In this document: one piece after another, positions 8,334 to 38,622 of the stretch
Layout: the number at the start of each line of letters is the position of its first letter
Position numbering within the stretch: position 1 is the stretch's first letter
Source of the DNA: Parvularculales bacterium
GTDB lineage: Bacteria > Pseudomonadota > Alphaproteobacteria > JAPOUT01 > JBAJNM01
NCBI GenBank assembly: GCA_036881865.1
Contig: JBAJNM010000011.1
Span: forward strand, 1-47,299
Length of the DNA stretch: 47,299 nucleotides
Direction of reading: 5' to 3'
Translations under genes and position numbers: made by a program
The notes under the pieces: model-generated
Seen by the model: the letters and a program-made list of their open reading frames with translations, nothing else
What the model was told of the DNA's origin: nothing
The model's database searches: none

Positions 8334-8391
8334 TTACTGGCATGTTTCATCACGCCTGATGTTTAACGGGTAGGGCAGGAGTCAAGATGGC

Positions 8392-8715
8392 TTACGCAGC
8401 TCTTTTGCCTTTTCTACCTTTGCCTGTCCCCTCAACAATACCCATGATGTCGCTTTCTTTCATGATAAGAAGGTCGTCTCCATCAAGGGTAATTTCAGTG
8501 CCGGACCATTTGCCGAACAAAATACGATCACCGGCTTTTACATCTAAGGCGTGCGTCTTACCGTCATCGCCTGTGATGCCCGGCCCAACAGATACCACAA
8601 GGCCCTCTGATGGTTTTTCTTGCGCTGTATCAGGAATAATAATACCGCCAGCGGTCATAGTTTCTTCCTCTACGCGCCGAACCAGAACACGGTCGTGCAA
8701 CGGACGAAATTTCAT
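8392..8715 (-). CDS. groS: Co-chaperonin GroES (Hsp10)
   Basis: This is the heptameric lid of the GroEL chamber. The 107-aa protein starts [16 protein letters not shown], the standard GroES opening, followed by the mobile-loop region [18 protein letters not shown] (about residues 21-38). It ends in a basic tail ([10 protein letters not shown]) about ten residues longer than most GroES. A strong ribosome-binding site, GAAGGAGG, precedes the ATG on the minus strand. It is the first gene of the groESL operon. Its transcript should carry a leader of roughly 230 nt, because the promoter and CIRCE lie far upstream. Confidence 0.97.
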
Positions 8716-8799
8716 AATTGAATCCTCCTTCTCTATGGTGGATAAGTGAACCCCGTAGGCAATATCCGAAAAGCCGCCTTCTGTTGTGCCTTAATCTAC

Positions 8800-8850
8800 T
8801 TTGTCTTATCGTCATATCCTGCAAGGGATAAGTATCTGAATTAAGACAAA
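8800..8850 (-). promoter_or_regulatory. Nested stem-loop in the groES 5' leader
   Basis: TTTGTCTTA at 8800-8808 is the exact reverse complement of TAAGACAAA at 8842-8850. Within the loop TATCC (8815-8819) pairs with GGATA (8826-8830) around six nt. The element lies between CIRCE and the groES start, so it would be transcribed in the leader. It could tune translation or mRNA stability, or act in DNA as a second operator; the sequence does not decide between these. Confidence 0.4.
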
Positions 8851-8913
8851 AGAGCGGGTGAACAGGGTAGAAGACCTCGTCTTGCTGTAGGGGCTAAAGT
8901 TTGACGATCGCTG

Positions 8914-8940
8914 TTAGCGCTCACCGAAGGGGAGTGCTAA
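8914..8940 (-). promoter_or_regulatory. CIRCE operator (HrcA-binding site)
   Basis: The sequence TTAGCGCTC-N9-GAGTGCTAA matches the CIRCE consensus TTAGCACTC-N9-GAGTGCTAA with one change in the left arm. The symmetry extends three more bases on each side (CTG/CAG). It sits immediately downstream of the predicted groES promoter, where bound HrcA would block transcription. The hrcA gene is not in the window. Confidence 0.93.
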
Positions 8941-8954
8941 CAGCCTCGCGGGGA

Positions 8955-8983
8955 TACATAGGCATCCGGTGAATGTCTGTCAA
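8955..8983 (-). promoter_or_regulatory. groESL promoter
   Basis: On the minus strand, a perfect TTGACA -35 box (8978-8983) is followed by a 17-nt spacer and TATGTA (8955-8960) as the -10. The expected start point, around 8948, falls just before the CIRCE operator. The hexamers look like the housekeeping sigma factor rather than a heat-shock sigma. Confidence 0.8.
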
Positions 8984-9029
8984 GGCCTACAGGGAAAAAA
9001 GGTGAAAAAAGGAGAAAAGGGGGCAGGAA

Positions 9030-10217
9030 ATGGCGAGAGAAAAAGAGAAGATAGTGAATAAAAGTCAGAAAAATACTCAATTTTTCAATAAGCCTATAGG
9101 AGAGGCTTTGATAAGCCAGTCCGGGTCGCGTTTTGCTTTGCCCACACCAGTGTTAGTGTTGGATTATGATATTTTTACCGCCAATGTGAAGCGGATGGCA
9201 AGGGTGTGTGGGGAAAAAGGCATGGCGCTGCGGCCCCATGCCAAAACACATAAATCGGCTACCATTGCGAAAATTCAGATAGAGGCTGGGGCGGTTGGGG
9301 TGTGTTGTGCCAAGATAGGGGAGGCTGAGGCACTGGCGGCCCAGGGCGTTGATGGCATACTGATTACTTCGCCGGTGGCCTCGGAGCAGGCTATCAGGCG
9401 GATCGTAGCACTCAACGGGCTGCTTGAGGAGTTGACTGTGGTGGTAGACCATGTTGCAACCGCCGAGGCTTTGGCACTGGCGGCCTCTCAGGGGGGCTTG
9501 CGGGTCTTGATTGATTTAGATGTGGGGTTGCACCGTACAGGGGTAGCCCCTGGGCCTGTAGCTCTTGATTTATTAGCAAGAATATCAACGTTGCCATCTC
9601 TTGCGTTTCTTGGATTTCAGGCTTATGCAGGCCACCTTATGCATGTGGAGGATTTCACCGAGCGACGCACTCACGCTCTGAAAGTATTAGCGCAAGTGGT
9701 GGAGATGCGAGATGCGGCTCGCTCAGCGGGCCATGAGTGCACCATTCTTTCCGGTGGGGGTACGGGAACCTATGACATTGATGTGGAGGCAGGCGTGTTC
9801 ACAGAACTTCAAGCCGGATCTTATATTTTCATGGATGGGCAGTATGGTGCTGTAAAAGATGCAGAGGCTGCGGGATTGCCTTTTGGCGTAGCGCTGATGG
9901 TGCAGATGAGTGTCGTTTCTTCCAATACGGCGGGGTTGGCTACAACGGATGCGGGGTATAAATCATTTTCCGCCGATGCCGATGCCCCGCGTCTTCTCTC
10001 TGGCGTGCCGGAGGGTACGAAATACTTTTTCTTCGGTGATGAACATGGTGGTTTGAAACTACCGTCCGGCGTTAATGGCCTAACGCCGGGCCATATGGCT
10101 TCTGCCATCACGCCTCATTGTGATCCTACCGTTAATCTTTATGACTATTACCACGTTGTGCGTGGCGACACGCTGATAGACATCTGGCCTATTGAGGCCA
10201 GAGGACGCTCCTACTGA
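9030..10217 (+). CDS. D-threonine aldolase / D-serine dehydratase-like PLP enzyme
   Basis: The 395-aa protein has an alanine-racemase-like TIM-barrel N-terminal domain, with the PLP lysine in RPHAKTHKS (Lys72), and a C-terminal beta domain. A His-Cys metal site, PHCDPTVN (His363-Cys364), is typical of low-specificity D-threonine aldolases, D-serine dehydratases (DSD1) and D-threo-3-hydroxyaspartate dehydratases. All act on D-beta-hydroxy amino acids, and the sequence alone does not separate them. ATG 9030 follows a GGGGGCAGGA ribosome-binding site. Its stop overlaps the end of the convergent thioesterase gene by seven nt. The family is certain, the substrate is not. Confidence 0.85.
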   Translation: MAREKEKIVNKSQKNTQFFNKPIGEALISQSGSRFALPTPVLVLDYDIFTANVKRMARVCGEKGMALRPHAKTHKSATIAKIQIEAGAVGVCCAKIGEAEALAAQGVDGILITSPVASEQAIRRIVALNGLLEELTVVVDHVATAEALALAASQGGLRVLIDLDVGLHRTGVAPGPVALDLLARISTLPSLAFLGFQAYAGHLMHVEDFTERRTHALKVLAQVVEMRDAARSAGHECTILSGGGTGTYDIDVEAGVFTELQAGSYIFMDGQYGAVKDAEAAGLPFGVALMVQMSVVSSNTAGLATTDAGYKSFSADADAPRLLSGVPEGTKYFFFGDEHGGLKLPSGVNGLTPGHMASAITPHCDPTVNLYDYYHVVRGDTLIDIWPIEARGRSY

Positions 10218-20538: not shown

Positions 20539-22404
20539 ATGTCTGTTATTAAGCGCCTGTCTGAAGATGCCGTTAATCGTATCGCCGCCGGTGAAGTGGT
20601 GGAGCGCCCGGCAAGTGTGGTGCGAGAACTCACAGAAAATTCTCTGGATGCCGGTGCACGACAGATTGATATCACCATAGAAGAAGGTGGCCTGCAGGCC
20701 ATCGTCATTGACGATGATGGTTGCGGTATGGATAAAGACGATCTCGCTTTATGTGTTGAGCGTCATGCAACGTCAAAATTGTCTATTGATGGTGGTCGCG
20801 ATGACATTTTGAATATCCGCACGTTGGGATTTCGCGGTGAAGCGTTGCCCTCTATTGGGTCTGTAGCGCGGCTTGTTATCATCAGCTGCACTAGCCGGGA
20901 AGAGACAGCCTATAGTATCACGGTGGACAATGGTACGGCGCATTCTGCCCGGCCAGCAGCCGGTGGACGGGGGACTCACGTTGAGGTGCGGGATATTTTT
21001 CGTAACTTACCCGCCCGCCTTAAGTTTATGAAATCCACCCGCGCTGAGGCCGGGGCTATTGGCGATGTAGTGCGCCGTCTTGCTATGGCTCACAATGAGG
21101 TTGGTTTTAGGTTGATGTCCGGTGGACGGGCCATCGTGGATTGTCCTCCTGATGACAGTTCTGAAGAACGCCTCAGGCGCATCATGGGGGCTGAGTTTAT
21201 GGATAACGCTCTACCGGTAGATGCCACCCGCGAGGGAATCCGGTTTAGCGGATATGCAGGACTGCCTACATATAATCGGGCCAATGCTCAAATGCAGTTT
21301 TTGTTTGTTAATGGGCGTCCTGTTCGTGACCGCTTGCTGGCGGGTGCTGTGCGGGGGGCATATGCTGATGTGCTGGCTCGCAATCGGCATCCGGCATTGG
21401 TTATGTTTCTCACCCTGCCACCCCATGAAGTGGACGTTAATGTGCATCCCACTAAGGCTGAGGTGCGGTTTCGTGTGCCCGCTGCGGTACGAGGGTTGGT
21501 GGTAAGTGCCTTGCATCATACGCTGGTAAGTGCTGGACATAAAGCCGCTACCAGTGTTAGTCAGGCAGCCGTTGGAGCTTTGCGGCAGGGCGGGGGTGTG
21601 CCTTATTCAGGTCATCGTGGTGGGAGGGCAAGGGGTGCGTCGCCTAATCTTATGGGGTTGGGTGAACAGGCCTCTGTTGGGGTGCCGGGTGGGGAGCAAC
21701 AACCAAATTTTGGTATGTCTTCTGCTCCCGCTATGCCTGGCCTTGAGCGGGCAGATATTTATAGTGGTCGTGTTGAGGGTGATGGCGGAAATGAAGGAGT
21801 TAGCACACAAGAATTACCGGATGGTATGCCTTTAGGGGTTGCCAGAGCGCAGGTGCATGAGACGTATATTGTAGCGCAAACCCATGATGGCATTGTTATT
21901 GTTGACCAGCATGCAGCTCATGAAAGACTTGTTCATGAGCGCTTCAAGCATTCTCTTGCTGTGTCTGGTGTTGAGCGTCAGACATTATTAACACCGGAAG
22001 TGGTTGAGTTGGATGCCGCTGTGGTAGAGCAGTTGATGCAGCGGGCTGGTGAGCTAGCAGATCTGGGGTTAGTGATTGAACGGTTTGGGGAGGATGCCAT
22101 TGTGGTGCGGGAGACGCCGGCTTTGTTGGGGCCGTGTGATGCTGCGGCTTTGGTACGTGATTTGGCCGACGATGTAGCGGAGTTAGGTGAGGCGTTGAGC
22201 TTAAAAGAACAGTTGGAGGAGATTTCAGGAACCATGGCTTGTCACGGCAGTGTGCGTGCAGGTCGTCGGTTGAGTGCTGATGAGATGAATGCTCTTCTGC
22301 GGGAGATGGAGGCAACGCCGTTGTCCGGTCAATGCAATCATGGTCGTCCTACGTATGTAGAGATGAAATTGGGCGACATTGAGCGCTTGTTTGGTAGGCG
22401 CTGA
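20539..22404 (+). CDS. mutL: DNA mismatch repair protein MutL (endonuclease type)
   Basis: MutL couples MutS mismatch recognition to strand incision. The N-terminal GHKL ATPase has IAAGEVVERPASVVREL (about residues 14-30), the ENSLDAGA box, DDGCGM and TLGFRGEALPSI. A variable linker of about residues 335-430 follows. The C-terminal domain has the metal-binding endonuclease motif DQHA-x2-E-x4-E (from Asp456), plus CHGSVRAG and CNHGRP. This marks a nicking MutL, as expected where MutH is missing. At 621 aa it is of normal length. It follows the M16 pair, a conserved alphaproteobacterial order. Its 3' end almost meets the convergent rsmD. Confidence 0.97.
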   Translation: MSVIKRLSEDAVNRIAAGEVVERPASVVRELTENSLDAGARQIDITIEEGGLQAIVIDDDGCGMDKDDLALCVERHATSKLSIDGGRDDILNIRTLGFRGEALPSIGSVARLVIISCTSREETAYSITVDNGTAHSARPAAGGRGTHVEVRDIFRNLPARLKFMKSTRAEAGAIGDVVRRLAMAHNEVGFRLMSGGRAIVDCPPDDSSEERLRRIMGAEFMDNALPVDATREGIRFSGYAGLPTYNRANAQMQFLFVNGRPVRDRLLAGAVRGAYADVLARNRHPALVMFLTLPPHEVDVNVHPTKAEVRFRVPAAVRGLVVSALHHTLVSAGHKAATSVSQAAVGALRQGGGVPYSGHRGGRARGASPNLMGLGEQASVGVPGGEQQPNFGMSSAPAMPGLERADIYSGRVEGDGGNEGVSTQELPDGMPLGVARAQVHETYIVAQTHDGIVIVDQHAAHERLVHERFKHSLAVSGVERQTLLTPEVVELDAAVVEQLMQRAGELADLGLVIERFGEDAIVVRETPALLGPCDAAALVRDLADDVAELGEALSLKEQLEEISGTMACHGSVRAGRRLSADEMNALLREMEATPLSGQCNHGRPTYVEMKLGDIERLFGRR

Positions 22405-35642: not shown

Positions 35643-35921
35643 TTACCGGTCAAAATCTGACAAAATGGCCCGCATGGGGTCATTTCTGTTGGCGTTTTCA
35701 TTGTGGCAAAGGCCGTAGCCATTGTTCCAGCCCGATTTATAAGCCGCATTGGTTTTGTAAAGTGTATCATCACGAAAGCGCTCGCGGGCACCCAGAGCTG
35801 CCGTCTGGCATCCCTGATTATAGCCGACATCATAATCCGCACTATAAACAGGGGCTGTTGAGGGTGCTACGCATCCACATACTATAGCCACAAGGGACAG
35901 GGAGGTCGGCAATCGGCTCAT
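35643..35921 (-). CDS. Small lipoprotein with GYxxGC and GWNNGYGLC repeats
   Basis: I do not recognise a named family. The 92-aa protein has a hydrophobic signal (about residues 4-16) ending VCGC, so Cys17 would be lipidated. The mature part has two similar Tyr/Gly/Cys units: DVGYNQGCQTAALGA and YKSGWNNGYGLC. The two cysteines outside the signal could form a disulfide in the periplasm. It resembles small conserved proteobacterial envelope lipoproteins of the Gly-x3-Gly-x2-Cys type that I have seen before without function. It lies 17 nt downstream of the DUF262 gene in the same direction, but likely is independent core sequence. Confidence 0.7.
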   Translation of the reverse strand: MSRLPTSLSLVAIVCGCVAPSTAPVYSADYDVGYNQGCQTAALGARERFRDDTLYKTNAAYKSGWNNGYGLCHNENANRNDPMRAILSDFDR

Positions 35922-35938: not shown

Positions 35939-38032
35939 TTATTCATCTCCTCCGTTTCCAAGCTGTCTTTCTAAGGATTGCCGAACTAAGCTGAGTATAT
36001 AAGGAAGTTCGTCAAGACCACTGTATTTGACCTCAACATCTCCGTTCCCCCAGCGTCCCAGACCGGTGATATTCCTGCAAAGTCTCTTTGGATCGCTTAT
36101 ATCCATAAACTCCATATTTAGTATCAACTGGAGTCCTTTGGCTTGGGGGATTACATCAACGAAATTGGTCTCGGCTTTATAAGCGATGTAGTGCTTAAGA
36201 ATTTCCTCACTAACGCAGGGGTCAAGATTGAGAATCTCGCGTTGTAATGATTCAAACAGCTGTTTCGTCGGTGAACTCGTCAAATGACGATGATCCTCAA
36301 ACGAATAAGTAGAAGGGCTAACTTCCTTAGGTCGATAGGTCTCTAGAATATCTTCTGAAATATATGGAAAACGCCACACGTTGATGGCTTTTTCAGCGAG
36401 GCTATTGGCACGATTGATGATGGTTTTGTCTGTCCATTCATCCAGTTCTCCAAGGCCGGAATTGACCTTGAGCGGGCTATGCCGAAATCCTCCTTTCATG
36501 TCTCTTTTTTCAACAAACGGCCTGTCGCTATACTCGGAATTGTAGCCAGTTAGAGTCAGATTTCCCAAAGTGTGCAAATACCGCTCATGGATTTGCTGCC
36601 AATCCTCACCCAACACCGTCTTCCATTCTTTGGTAAGGCTTTGGGGCATTATGTGTTCAATCGTATATTCACCAACTGGCACCCTCTCTTTGCGCCCAAA
36701 ATTCTCAAACCGACGCAACCAATAACTTCGACGTGGGAAATTGTAGAGATTACGTAGCTTGATTTTTTCTCGAAATTCTTCATCCGAAGGAAATCGCCGA
36801 TAGGAAGGCATTAGAAGGAAATGCGCTATAATGCTTTCAAGGTAGCAATCCTTTTTCAACGCTTTTGCAAACGTTGCAAATGTCTTGTTCATTGAATTCG
36901 TTGGAATTTCGCAAACGGCACGTCTGAAGACATAGGTTTCAACCAGCCGAACAGCTTCAAGAAAGTCATCATGTTCCAGCACTTCACTCTTGAAGTCAGC
37001 GTAAAGCACTAGCAGGAGCGGATATGCAACATCAACACGAAGCTCGCGAAGGTCGTTGAAGGCTGCCTTCAGGTCAGGATCAGATTCTTTATCCAGAGCC
37101 ATTGCGCAGAAATACCGAGAATATTGACAAATATCTTTAACCAGTTCCTCGATGCGCTGCGTATCTATTTCCTCGGGCCGAGCATAGTCTTTGAAGGCCG
37201 TGTAAACGTCATCTAACCTTGGCATGTTACCTGTTTTTACGATCAGGAAATAGCGCATGAATTTGTCGAAATGTTTATCGTAAGCTTCTTGTCCAAATGC
37301 CTGTTCCATTGATCGCCAATATTGATTGTACAATCGCTCCTGAAGGCCGGTATCCAACCCCATTAGAACAAAATTTCGGATGAGGTCAGCTTGACTGAGT
37401 TCGCGCCCCGTCGAGTTCATGCTTTCAAAGATCAGTTGGGGATTGTCCCCTTTGCGCGAAAGGGCGACATAGACAACGAGAAGCTTTGATAGTCCTCGGC
37501 ATACACTTTCCAAGTCATTCGCATATTCTTTGATACGCTCCTCGAAAAATAGAAAATTATCCTTTATTCGATGAGAGTAATTTTCTGGGAGATCCCGGGT
37601 ATCTTGACCGTCAATAACAGCAAAAAGAGTGTCTCTGTCCGTCTCAGACAAAACCAACTTTCGACGCATATTGCCGGTTTCGGGCTCGTTGATAAGATAG
37701 TAACCCTTCAATTTCTTCTGTGAAAAACCATTATATGGTTCTTGCTCCCCCAAAGCGTAGGATAATGCCGAAATCAGTAGCGTTAGGGTTGTAAGGCGTT
37801 GCTGGCCATCGATTACTAAAAGCGGAGCGTTATGCGCGTCAGTATCTGCGACATAGACGATGGAACCAATGAAGTGGCTTTCAATACTGTCGCCTTTACC
37901 AGCTCGAATAATATCATTCCAAAGCTGCTCGCACTGAACGCGATCCCATGAGTATTTTCGTTGATAAATGGGGATCAAGAACTGGAAGGAGCCGCCAATA
38001 AAATTTAGAAGATTTGTATGTTTTGCATCCAT
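35939..38032 (-). CDS. DUF262-DUF1524-DUF5655 protein, GmrSD/BrxU-like candidate defence nuclease
   Basis: The 697-aa protein has three recognised parts. The N-terminal DUF262 (ParB-like/GmrS) domain has PIYQRKYSW (21-29) and DGQQRLTTL (75-83). A DUF1524 HNH-type nuclease domain at about 450-540 has YTIEHIMPQSL and HTLGNLTLTGYN. The C-terminal DUF5655 at about 575-695 includes YIAYKAETNFVDV and GRWGNGDVEV. DUF262 plus DUF1524 in one chain is the fused arrangement of type IV GmrSD/BrxU-type enzymes and SspE, which cut modified phage DNA after nucleotide hydrolysis. Its GC content is visibly lower than its neighbours', and a 122-nt AT-rich leader precedes it. No partner gene (dnd, ssp, brx) is present. 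Defence function is inference from family. Confidence 0.85.
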   Translation of the reverse strand: MDAKHTNLLNFIGGSFQFLIPIYQRKYSWDRVQCEQLWNDIIRAGKGDSIESHFIGSIVYVADTDAHNAPLLVIDGQQRLTTLTLLISALSYALGEQEPYNGFSQKKLKGYYLINEPETGNMRRKLVLSETDRDTLFAVIDGQDTRDLPENYSHRIKDNFLFFEERIKEYANDLESVCRGLSKLLVVYVALSRKGDNPQLIFESMNSTGRELSQADLIRNFVLMGLDTGLQERLYNQYWRSMEQAFGQEAYDKHFDKFMRYFLIVKTGNMPRLDDVYTAFKDYARPEEIDTQRIEELVKDICQYSRYFCAMALDKESDPDLKAAFNDLRELRVDVAYPLLLVLYADFKSEVLEHDDFLEAVRLVETYVFRRAVCEIPTNSMNKTFATFAKALKKDCYLESIIAHFLLMPSYRRFPSDEEFREKIKLRNLYNFPRRSYWLRRFENFGRKERVPVGEYTIEHIMPQSLTKEWKTVLGEDWQQIHERYLHTLGNLTLTGYNSEYSDRPFVEKRDMKGGFRHSPLKVNSGLGELDEWTDKTIINRANSLAEKAINVWRFPYISEDILETYRPKEVSPSTYSFEDHRHLTSSPTKQLFESLQREILNLDPCVSEEILKHYIAYKAETNFVDVIPQAKGLQLILNMEFMDISDPKRLCRNITGLGRWGNGDVEVKYSGLDELPYILSLVRQSLERQLGNGGDE

Positions 38033-38154: not shown

Positions 38155-38622
38155 TTATGATGCATCACGACCTTCTGCTTCTGATAGAAGGGCTTTTTCA
38201 GCTTCCATTTGAAGACGGGTGGTCATCGCATAAAAGCCGTTGGAACGTTGGGGGGTTAAATGTTCCGCAAGGCCGAGGCGTTGAAAAAGGGTGTGAGCCG
38301 CATCGCTTGAAATTTCATCAACGGGCTGTCCGTTGTAGAGTATGGAAAGAATGGCAATGAGGCCGCGCACAATACGCGCATCACTATCGCCCTGAAAATA
38401 AAGATGCGGCGTACTAACACCCTCATGGGCACAGCGAAAGGAAAGCCAGACCTGACTGACGCATCCTTCCACTTTATTGCCCGGGATTTTATGCGAGGCA
38501 TGCATAGGCTCCAGAGCATCGCCCAGATCAATGACATAGTGGTAGCGCTCTTCCCAATCGTCAAACAGGGAAAAGTTGGCGATTAATTCGTCAAGATCAG
38601 GCAGGGGCACGGTAGCAGGCAT
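38155..38622 (-). CDS. sufE: Fe-S cluster assembly sulfur-acceptor protein SufE
   Basis: SufE takes persulfide sulfur from the SufS cysteine desulfurase and passes it to the SufB scaffold. The 155-aa protein has the family pattern with the acceptor cysteine in EGCVSQVWL (Cys54). RYHYVIDLGDALEPM (27-41) lies before it and the FQRLGLAEHLTPQRSNGFYAM block near residues 109-129. The length is a little above E. coli SufE. It stands alone, without sufBCDS nearby, and diverges from the mscS gene across about 120 nt. Confidence 0.94.
   Translation of the reverse strand: MPATVPLPDLDELIANFSLFDDWEERYHYVIDLGDALEPMHASHKIPGNKVEGCVSQVWLSFRCAHEGVSTPHLYFQGDSDARIVRGLIAILSILYNGQPVDEISSDAAHTLFQRLGLAEHLTPQRSNGFYAMTTRLQMEAEKALLSEAEGRDAS

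Follow-up and report, generated by a model that had tools for sequence, protein, structure and literature searches.

Gene and domain architecture

The window, that is, the whole stretch of 47,299 nucleotides of Parvularculales DNA analysed here, carries on its minus strand a gene for a 697-residue protein in which DUF262, DUF1524 and DUF5655 domains follow one another in a single chain. The gene, its domains and its two immediate neighbours are as follows.

35643–35921, minus strand: 92-residue open reading frame (ORF) whose start resembles that of a lipoprotein, located 17 bp downstream of the DUF262–DUF1524–DUF5655 gene (ORF list)
35939–38032, minus strand: GmrSD/RloF-type DUF262–DUF1524–DUF5655 gene, 697 residues (ORF with ATG start, Pfam, close relatives, AlphaFold model)
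35972–36274, minus strand: DUF5655 tail, residues 587–687, with a predicted YdhG/YjbR/MotA-like double-wing fold (Pfam PF18899, E = 6.2e-10)
36392–36793, minus strand: DUF1524/GmrSD_C domain (HNH, His-Me finger), residues 414–547 (Pfam PF07510, E = 3.4e-26)
37367–38002, minus strand: DUF262/GmrSD_N domain (ParB-like), residues 11–222 (Pfam PF03235, E = 7.8e-37)
37796–37810, minus strand: DGQQR motif, residues 75–79 (conserved without change in all 84 close rows)
38155–38622, minus strand: sufE, the upstream neighbour and marker of the site (Pfam PF02657, E = 9.7e-41; found in four of four genomes of the order, including the source genome)

All three domains score above the curated Pfam cut-offs, as a first-pass annotation of the sequence had proposed, with 127.8 bits for PF03235 (cut-off 33.2) and 92.2 bits for PF07510 (cut-off 23) in the same chain. 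GmrSD membership is marked by an N-terminal DGQQR motif and a C-terminal E/D-H-N-N motif, and both are present in the window protein. Within the DUF1524 domain, E459, H460, P463, N491 and N498 are invariant in 84 of 84 rows, comprising the window protein and 83 loci (88 loci, excluding the viral loci L108–L112); the His–Asn site of the HNH part is thus intact. The best PADLOC match of the protein is a model called Orf5, a name whose source we did not find in the literature searched. The existence of full-length relatives at 56–71% identity in many phyla indicates that the gene is no product of chance, and we have little doubt that it encodes a GmrSD-like nuclease.

An accessory gene beside sufE

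The gene lies among metabolic and transport genes, including those for an MscS channel, a FAD oxidoreductase and sulphite reductase. A PADLOC scan of ten nearby neighbours returned no defence gene, in agreement with the earlier description of a solitary gene between a small lipoprotein-like ORF and sufE with no BREX or Ssp partner nearby; the single match among the ten, to a desaturase model, is a FAD oxidoreductase according to Pfam. The 92-residue ORF has no Pfam family above the cut-off, no NCBIfam family and, among the same-order loci compared, no homolog outside its own genome. A promoter scan found 5 candidates, against 5.6 expected.

The GC content of the gene is 0.442, compared with about 0.51 in the window, so that the AT-richness noticed in the first pass is real, and in codon use it stands further from the norm than any other of the 42 ORFs compared (z = −6.0). 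The first pass had suggested a comparison of neighbourhoods. In the same-order genomes G002 and G003, sufE has the MscS gene nearby, just as it does in the window, and in none of the three other genomes of the order is sufE followed by a DUF262 gene. Across the class, a match at E ≤ 1e-60 occurs in 10 of 385 genomes, the source genome included. The absence after sufE, the atypical codons and the patchy presence in the class together support an accessory rather than a core gene; neither core-like codon use at a conserved locus nor a degenerate DUF1524 site, the two findings that would have spoken against a defence role, was observed.

Candidates for the route of arrival were rejected. The flanks contain only short, chance-like repeats in place of the repeats of a mobile unit, and of eight phage records that match, two reach a query coverage of 80% or more, which does not fit a phage-borne origin. 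Elsewhere in the window, a gene for a beta-lactamase-family serine hydrolase (PF00144; 26140–27390, minus strand) also deviates in codon use (z = −4.1, GC3 0.63). Genome G003 holds the decayed remnant of another family member (contig C95, 378–722), which spans 115 columns at 51% identity and contains stops; it adjoins a gene that we take, from its sequence, to be cobT-like and a small ORF that is presumably a membrane coiled-coil protein.

Relatives usually lie in type I operons

A contig scan yielded 531 confirmed relatives, and the best 80 of these, at 56–71% identity to the window protein (60–71% for the closest), were analysed; all of the 80 except L058 match the query almost from end to end. 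We searched their surroundings within 6 kb using profile HMMs for HsdM, HsdS and HsdR that were built for this analysis. The seeds from locus L026 were confirmed by Pfam (N6_Mtase/HsdM_N, Methylase_S and HSDR_N/ResIII/EcoEI_R_C), and the HMMs matched in six of six loci chosen as positive and none of six chosen as negative.

Among the best 80 of the 531 relatives, hsd genes lie within 6 kb on the same strand in 59 and on the other strand in two; five have none, and the remaining 14 were left unclassified for their short flanks. When only the 44 loci flanked on both sides by 5 kb or more are considered, the numbers are 38, one and five, respectively. HsdR abuts the gene downstream in 21 of the 80 relatives (14 of the 44 with full flanks). 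At least two of the M, S and R components are listed for 33 of the 38 linked loci, and R only for the other five, which are uncertain because an HsdR-like match could be another helicase. The independent annotation of Ruegeria TM1040 gives the same order (methyltransferase, S, hypothetical protein, DUF262–DUF1524 protein, DEAD/DEAH helicase), and in a Sulfitobacter plasmid and in E. coli NQ3 the gene adjoins an hsd operon of the opposite strand. The hsd operon of L026 also contains two extra accessory genes (8356–9989), one PD-Lambda-3_B-like (E = 1.5e-78) and the other a candidate PDC-S32-like gene (E = 2e-9).

The usual partner of this family is therefore type I restriction–modification. The first-pass annotation was correct that BREX and Ssp partners are absent from the neighbourhood, but it missed this natural partner. 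The linkage is no proof of the target of the GmrSD enzyme.

Whereas 38 of the 44 full-flank relatives lie with type I operons, the window copy is solitary, and we searched the rest of its genome for a hidden type I system. There is no HSDR_N match (the control search was positive in 9 of 14 named genomes) and no HsdM match, the latter in a search without a control of its own; these two absences speak against such a system. One weak N6_Mtase (PF02384) match was found, with the control positive in 13 of 14, and the HsdR search gave a match to the helicase region only (E = 6.5e-5).

The same genome carries two further DUF262 proteins. One, on contig C28 (3702–9650), is NsnA-like (PADLOC E = 6e-64) and adjoins a HATPase–Hypoth_Ymh protein, a NucS-like protein and a C5 cytosine DNA methylase; this is probably another defence locus, and its methylase would limit the 5mC contexts open to type IV enzymes of this cell. 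The other, on contig C1 (4979–6259, minus strand), is a solitary protein of 426 residues with a C-terminal HNH domain, encoded between genes that, judging from their sequences, we take to be dnaJ-like and hslU-like.

In E. coli, a relative that is 57% identical to the window protein resides in the immigration control region beside symE–hsdSMR–mrr. Matches occur in 1,461 of 5,426 E. coli genomes, 1,343 of them with a coverage of at least 80%. Among 60 rows spread down the E. coli ranking, 52 have two features under the match (one also an IS element), three have one feature across the whole query and five are short matches. Of three individual records, one copy is annotated as incomplete, one is frameshifted with an internal stop (L150) and one, from E. 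coli NQ3, is an intact protein of 699 residues. The E. coli copies (the region of L136, L149 and L150) thus appear to be broken in most of the rows inspected. The occurrence of the same architecture in E. coli makes tests feasible in laboratory strains.

Operon remnants beside the nearest relatives

A quick-search maximum-likelihood tree of 85 rows places the window protein in one clade with L025, from a Roseovarius metagenome-assembled genome (MAG), and L058, from an alphaproteobacterial MAG (SH-aLRT 98). The nearest others, at 83–87, are L087, L091 and L029, all of which are linked to type I genes. L025 adjoins ATP synthase-like genes and has no hsd gene across 4.3 kb upstream and 10 kb downstream, and L058 adjoins an hsd operon of the opposite strand.

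Both nearest relatives retain traces of an operon. At the end of the gene in L025 and L058, a stub of an hsdR start overlaps the stop codon by four bases (ATGA, −4), as in the intact operons, and at this overlap 8 of 11 residues of the HsdR N-terminal consensus are found in L025 and likewise 8 of 11 in L058. In a random control, 2 of 3,000 places scored at least 6 of 11, and one of these scored 10 and is therefore probably a true hsdR start. On the other side, the 73 C-terminal residues of the operon's upstream protein directly precede the gene in L025 (E about 1e-12), and 13 residues of that protein precede it in L058 (E = 0.018), a match that is weak alone but in place. No operon stub lies on either side of the window copy.

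Given the stubs beside both nearest relatives, it is very likely that the clade of the window copy derived from a type I operon; for the window copy itself, which has no stub, the exit is inferred from its membership of the clade. The solitary state within this clade is derived, a history that the first-pass annotation missed. The label 'solo' is scattered on the tree (five rows, five changes), so detachment seems to have been repeated, although the label may also reflect missed neighbours. A comparison of the two detached copies of the window and L025, which spans the entire path between them and not just its solitary part, gives pN = 0.18 and pS = 0.80 (saturated), with a pN of likewise 0.18 for the tail. 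On these values, the solitary copies are under purifying constraint.

Two further observations concern the surroundings of such operons. L031, a type I-linked Mesorhizobium relative, retains 26 residues of the operon's upstream protein (E = 4e-4) upstream of position 10001, which suggests repeated rearrangement at operon junctions. In L058, two minus-strand ORFs that share a peptide (about 9611–9931 and 21270–21587) flank the gene and the adjacent hsd operon, possibly as a repeat that marks an island.

Predicted fold of the body and of the tail

We modelled the window protein using AlphaFold with 65 sequences (mean pLDDT 86.5, pTM 0.75). Foldseek matched the model to DndI (E = 2.5e-16), SspE (E = 1.1e-13) and BrxU (E = 7.3e-5), and VIA-align gave Z = 23.1 over 514 residues at 7.4 Å for DndI, Z = 21.8 over 540 residues at 19.8 Å for SspE and Z = 14.6 over 426 residues at 18.1 Å for BrxU (7p9k), the high r.m.s.d. 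values indicating that the domains are differently placed in the matched structures. The likeness to GmrSD, BrxU and SspE recognized in the first pass thus extends from the Pfam domains to the modelled fold.

The DUF5655 tail, modelled alone, has a pLDDT of 88.1. Its VIA-align matches are 2oc6 (YdhG/DUF1801; Z = 8.5, 110 residues aligned, 4.1 Å), 3h9x (YjbR-like; Z = 8.3, 96 aligned, 3.1 Å), YjbR 2fki (Z = 8.1, 102 aligned, 4.7 Å) and the C-terminal domain of T4 MotA, 1kaf (Z = 7.0, 99 aligned, 3.1 Å; 6.0 with DNA), and these Z values, from 8.5 to 7.0, are at the edge of the trust level of VIA-align. The best Foldseek E value for the tail is just 0.031. A profile comparison with YjbR or DUF1801 showed no similarity, in a test that is insensitive, as it also missed the similarity of YjbR to DUF1801. 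On the basis of its model only, the tail may share the double-wing fold of DNA-binding domains. In other proteins DUF5655 follows NucS-like or HSDR_N_2 domains, or DUF4287, and we found no paper naming it in the literature searched.

The double-wing fold of T4 MotA reportedly recognises modified DNA. A weak similarity of MotA to the domain with which EcoKMcrA, a type IV enzyme, binds modified cytosine has also been described (PMC7145662, in the part available). At −6, both in the window protein and as the median of 83 rows, the net charge of the tail argues against DNA binding of a simple kind. Nor is the tail always retained: L058 has lost it. We therefore regard DNA binding by the modelled tail as possible, with the balance somewhat against it.

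A proposed mechanism and its alternatives

Our overall reading, to which we assign a probability of about 0.65, is that the window protein is an orphan single-chain restriction endonuclease of the GmrSD/RloF family, from a clade that came out of a type I operon and is now solitary. In GmrSD-type relatives, the DUF262 domain serves as modification sensor and NTPase, and cutting or nicking is the task of the DUF1524 domain (PMC10952713 and PMC11411939, in the portions available). By analogy, the DUF262 part of the window protein would bind NTP through its DGQQR motif and sense DNA bearing phage-type base modification, and NTP turnover would free the DUF1524 HNH part, which would then cleave the modified DNA. 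Within type I operons, such an enzyme might catch phages whose modified DNA escapes the type I enzyme. More speculatively, the tail could be a double-wing DNA-contacting module that aids the choice of modified DNA. An extended target range of GmrSD enzymes may be explained by this conserved third domain. Judged from these relatives, the enzyme is probably active against modified phage or plasmid DNA.

A bolder proposal, which we consider unlikely, is that DUF5655 is a double-wing specificity module borne by several unrelated defence nucleases (GmrSD-type HNH, NucS-type and HSDR_N_2-type), that it reads an extra phage modification and that the enzyme suffices outside the operon. If so, a GmrSD enzyme with DUF5655 would recognise a phage modification to which plain GmrSD is blind.

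The protein might instead sense a modification of its host, such as the N6-methyladenine of type I systems, as a self mark or trigger, in which case it would not be a type IV enzyme in the classical sense. The closest solved folds, above BrxU, are those of SspE and DndI, which sense phosphorothioate and depend on it; the family is, moreover, tied to type I methylases. However, the window genome has no HsdM of this kind and one weak N6_Mtase match only, and 5 of the 44 full-flank loci are without a type I gene within 6 kb, which makes a self mark improbable.

The main target could also be plasmids or other mobile DNA entering the cell. A precedent is the DUF262–DUF1524 protein PFLU4242, which likewise stands alone. 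The PFLU4242 gene makes large plasmids costly and induces SOS, and its length is about 1.6 kb (PMC8544851, as far as its available text goes). This is too short to encode a DUF5655 tail, and we give this target a low probability.

There is still less to be said for a guard or abortive role in which inhibition of the type I enzyme would set the protein off, the role that PrrC plays within EcoPrrI (PMC12707154, available part). The embedding in hsd operons with overlapping start and stop codons would suit such a role, but solitary copies retain every motif under purifying constraint, and in the window genome, with no type I partner, there would be nothing to guard. Finally, the atypical codon use of the window gene, the decayed fragment in G003, the loss of the tail in L058 and the probable wide decay in E. 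coli would fit a passenger in decay, acquired by transfer and now functionless, but the intact ORF, the conservation of all tested motifs and non-synonymous change far below synonymous change render this improbable.

Comparison with known systems

It is already known that GmrSD enzymes are linked to type I loci and that a single GmrSD gene can provide defence. GmrSD homologs termed RloF have been associated with type I loci (PMC4619093); like the family described here, they have DUF262 and DUF1524 domains and are encoded between hsdS and hsdR, as in L026–L029 and L049. The extra domains given in the available part of that paper are DUF4268, DUF4357 and DNA_binding_1, whereas the window family has DUF5655, and RloF-type genes lie in the type I operon, whereas the window copy lies outside it. 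TgvAB, from V. cholerae VPI-2, is also a GmrSD-family system inside a type I operon, with tested activity against Tevenvirinae, but it consists of two proteins that are both needed, as far as the available text states (PMC11411939), whereas the window protein is one chain with a third domain. The description of the gene as understudied holds in part: the RloF link and TgvAB are in print, whereas the operon fossils and the tail fold are not described in the literature searched, as far as the available portions of these sources go.

Eco94GmrSD shares the domain order, the EH/DH-N-N motif and the single chain, and has 629 residues compared with the 697 of the window protein; the same source names a putative GmrSD homolog of 733 residues in the E. 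coli immigration control region (PMC4437046, part available), which is probably close to the window family. Fifteen GmrSD groups have been tested according to the accessible part of PMC12373910. BrxU has a similar body fold (Z = 14.6), but no BREX gene is among the ten neighbours of the window copy. SspE and DndI are the best fold matches, over model ranges that end by residue 559, before the tail; they have modification partners, and PADLOC detected none among the same ten neighbours. The fold predicted for the tail may be that of YjbR, DUF1801/YdhG and the C-terminal domain of T4 MotA, whereas the tail is acidic. With relatives both adjacent to hsdR and detached from it, nature provides a way to test whether a GmrSD enzyme of a type I operon depends on that operon, and the fossil stubs show the direction of the change.
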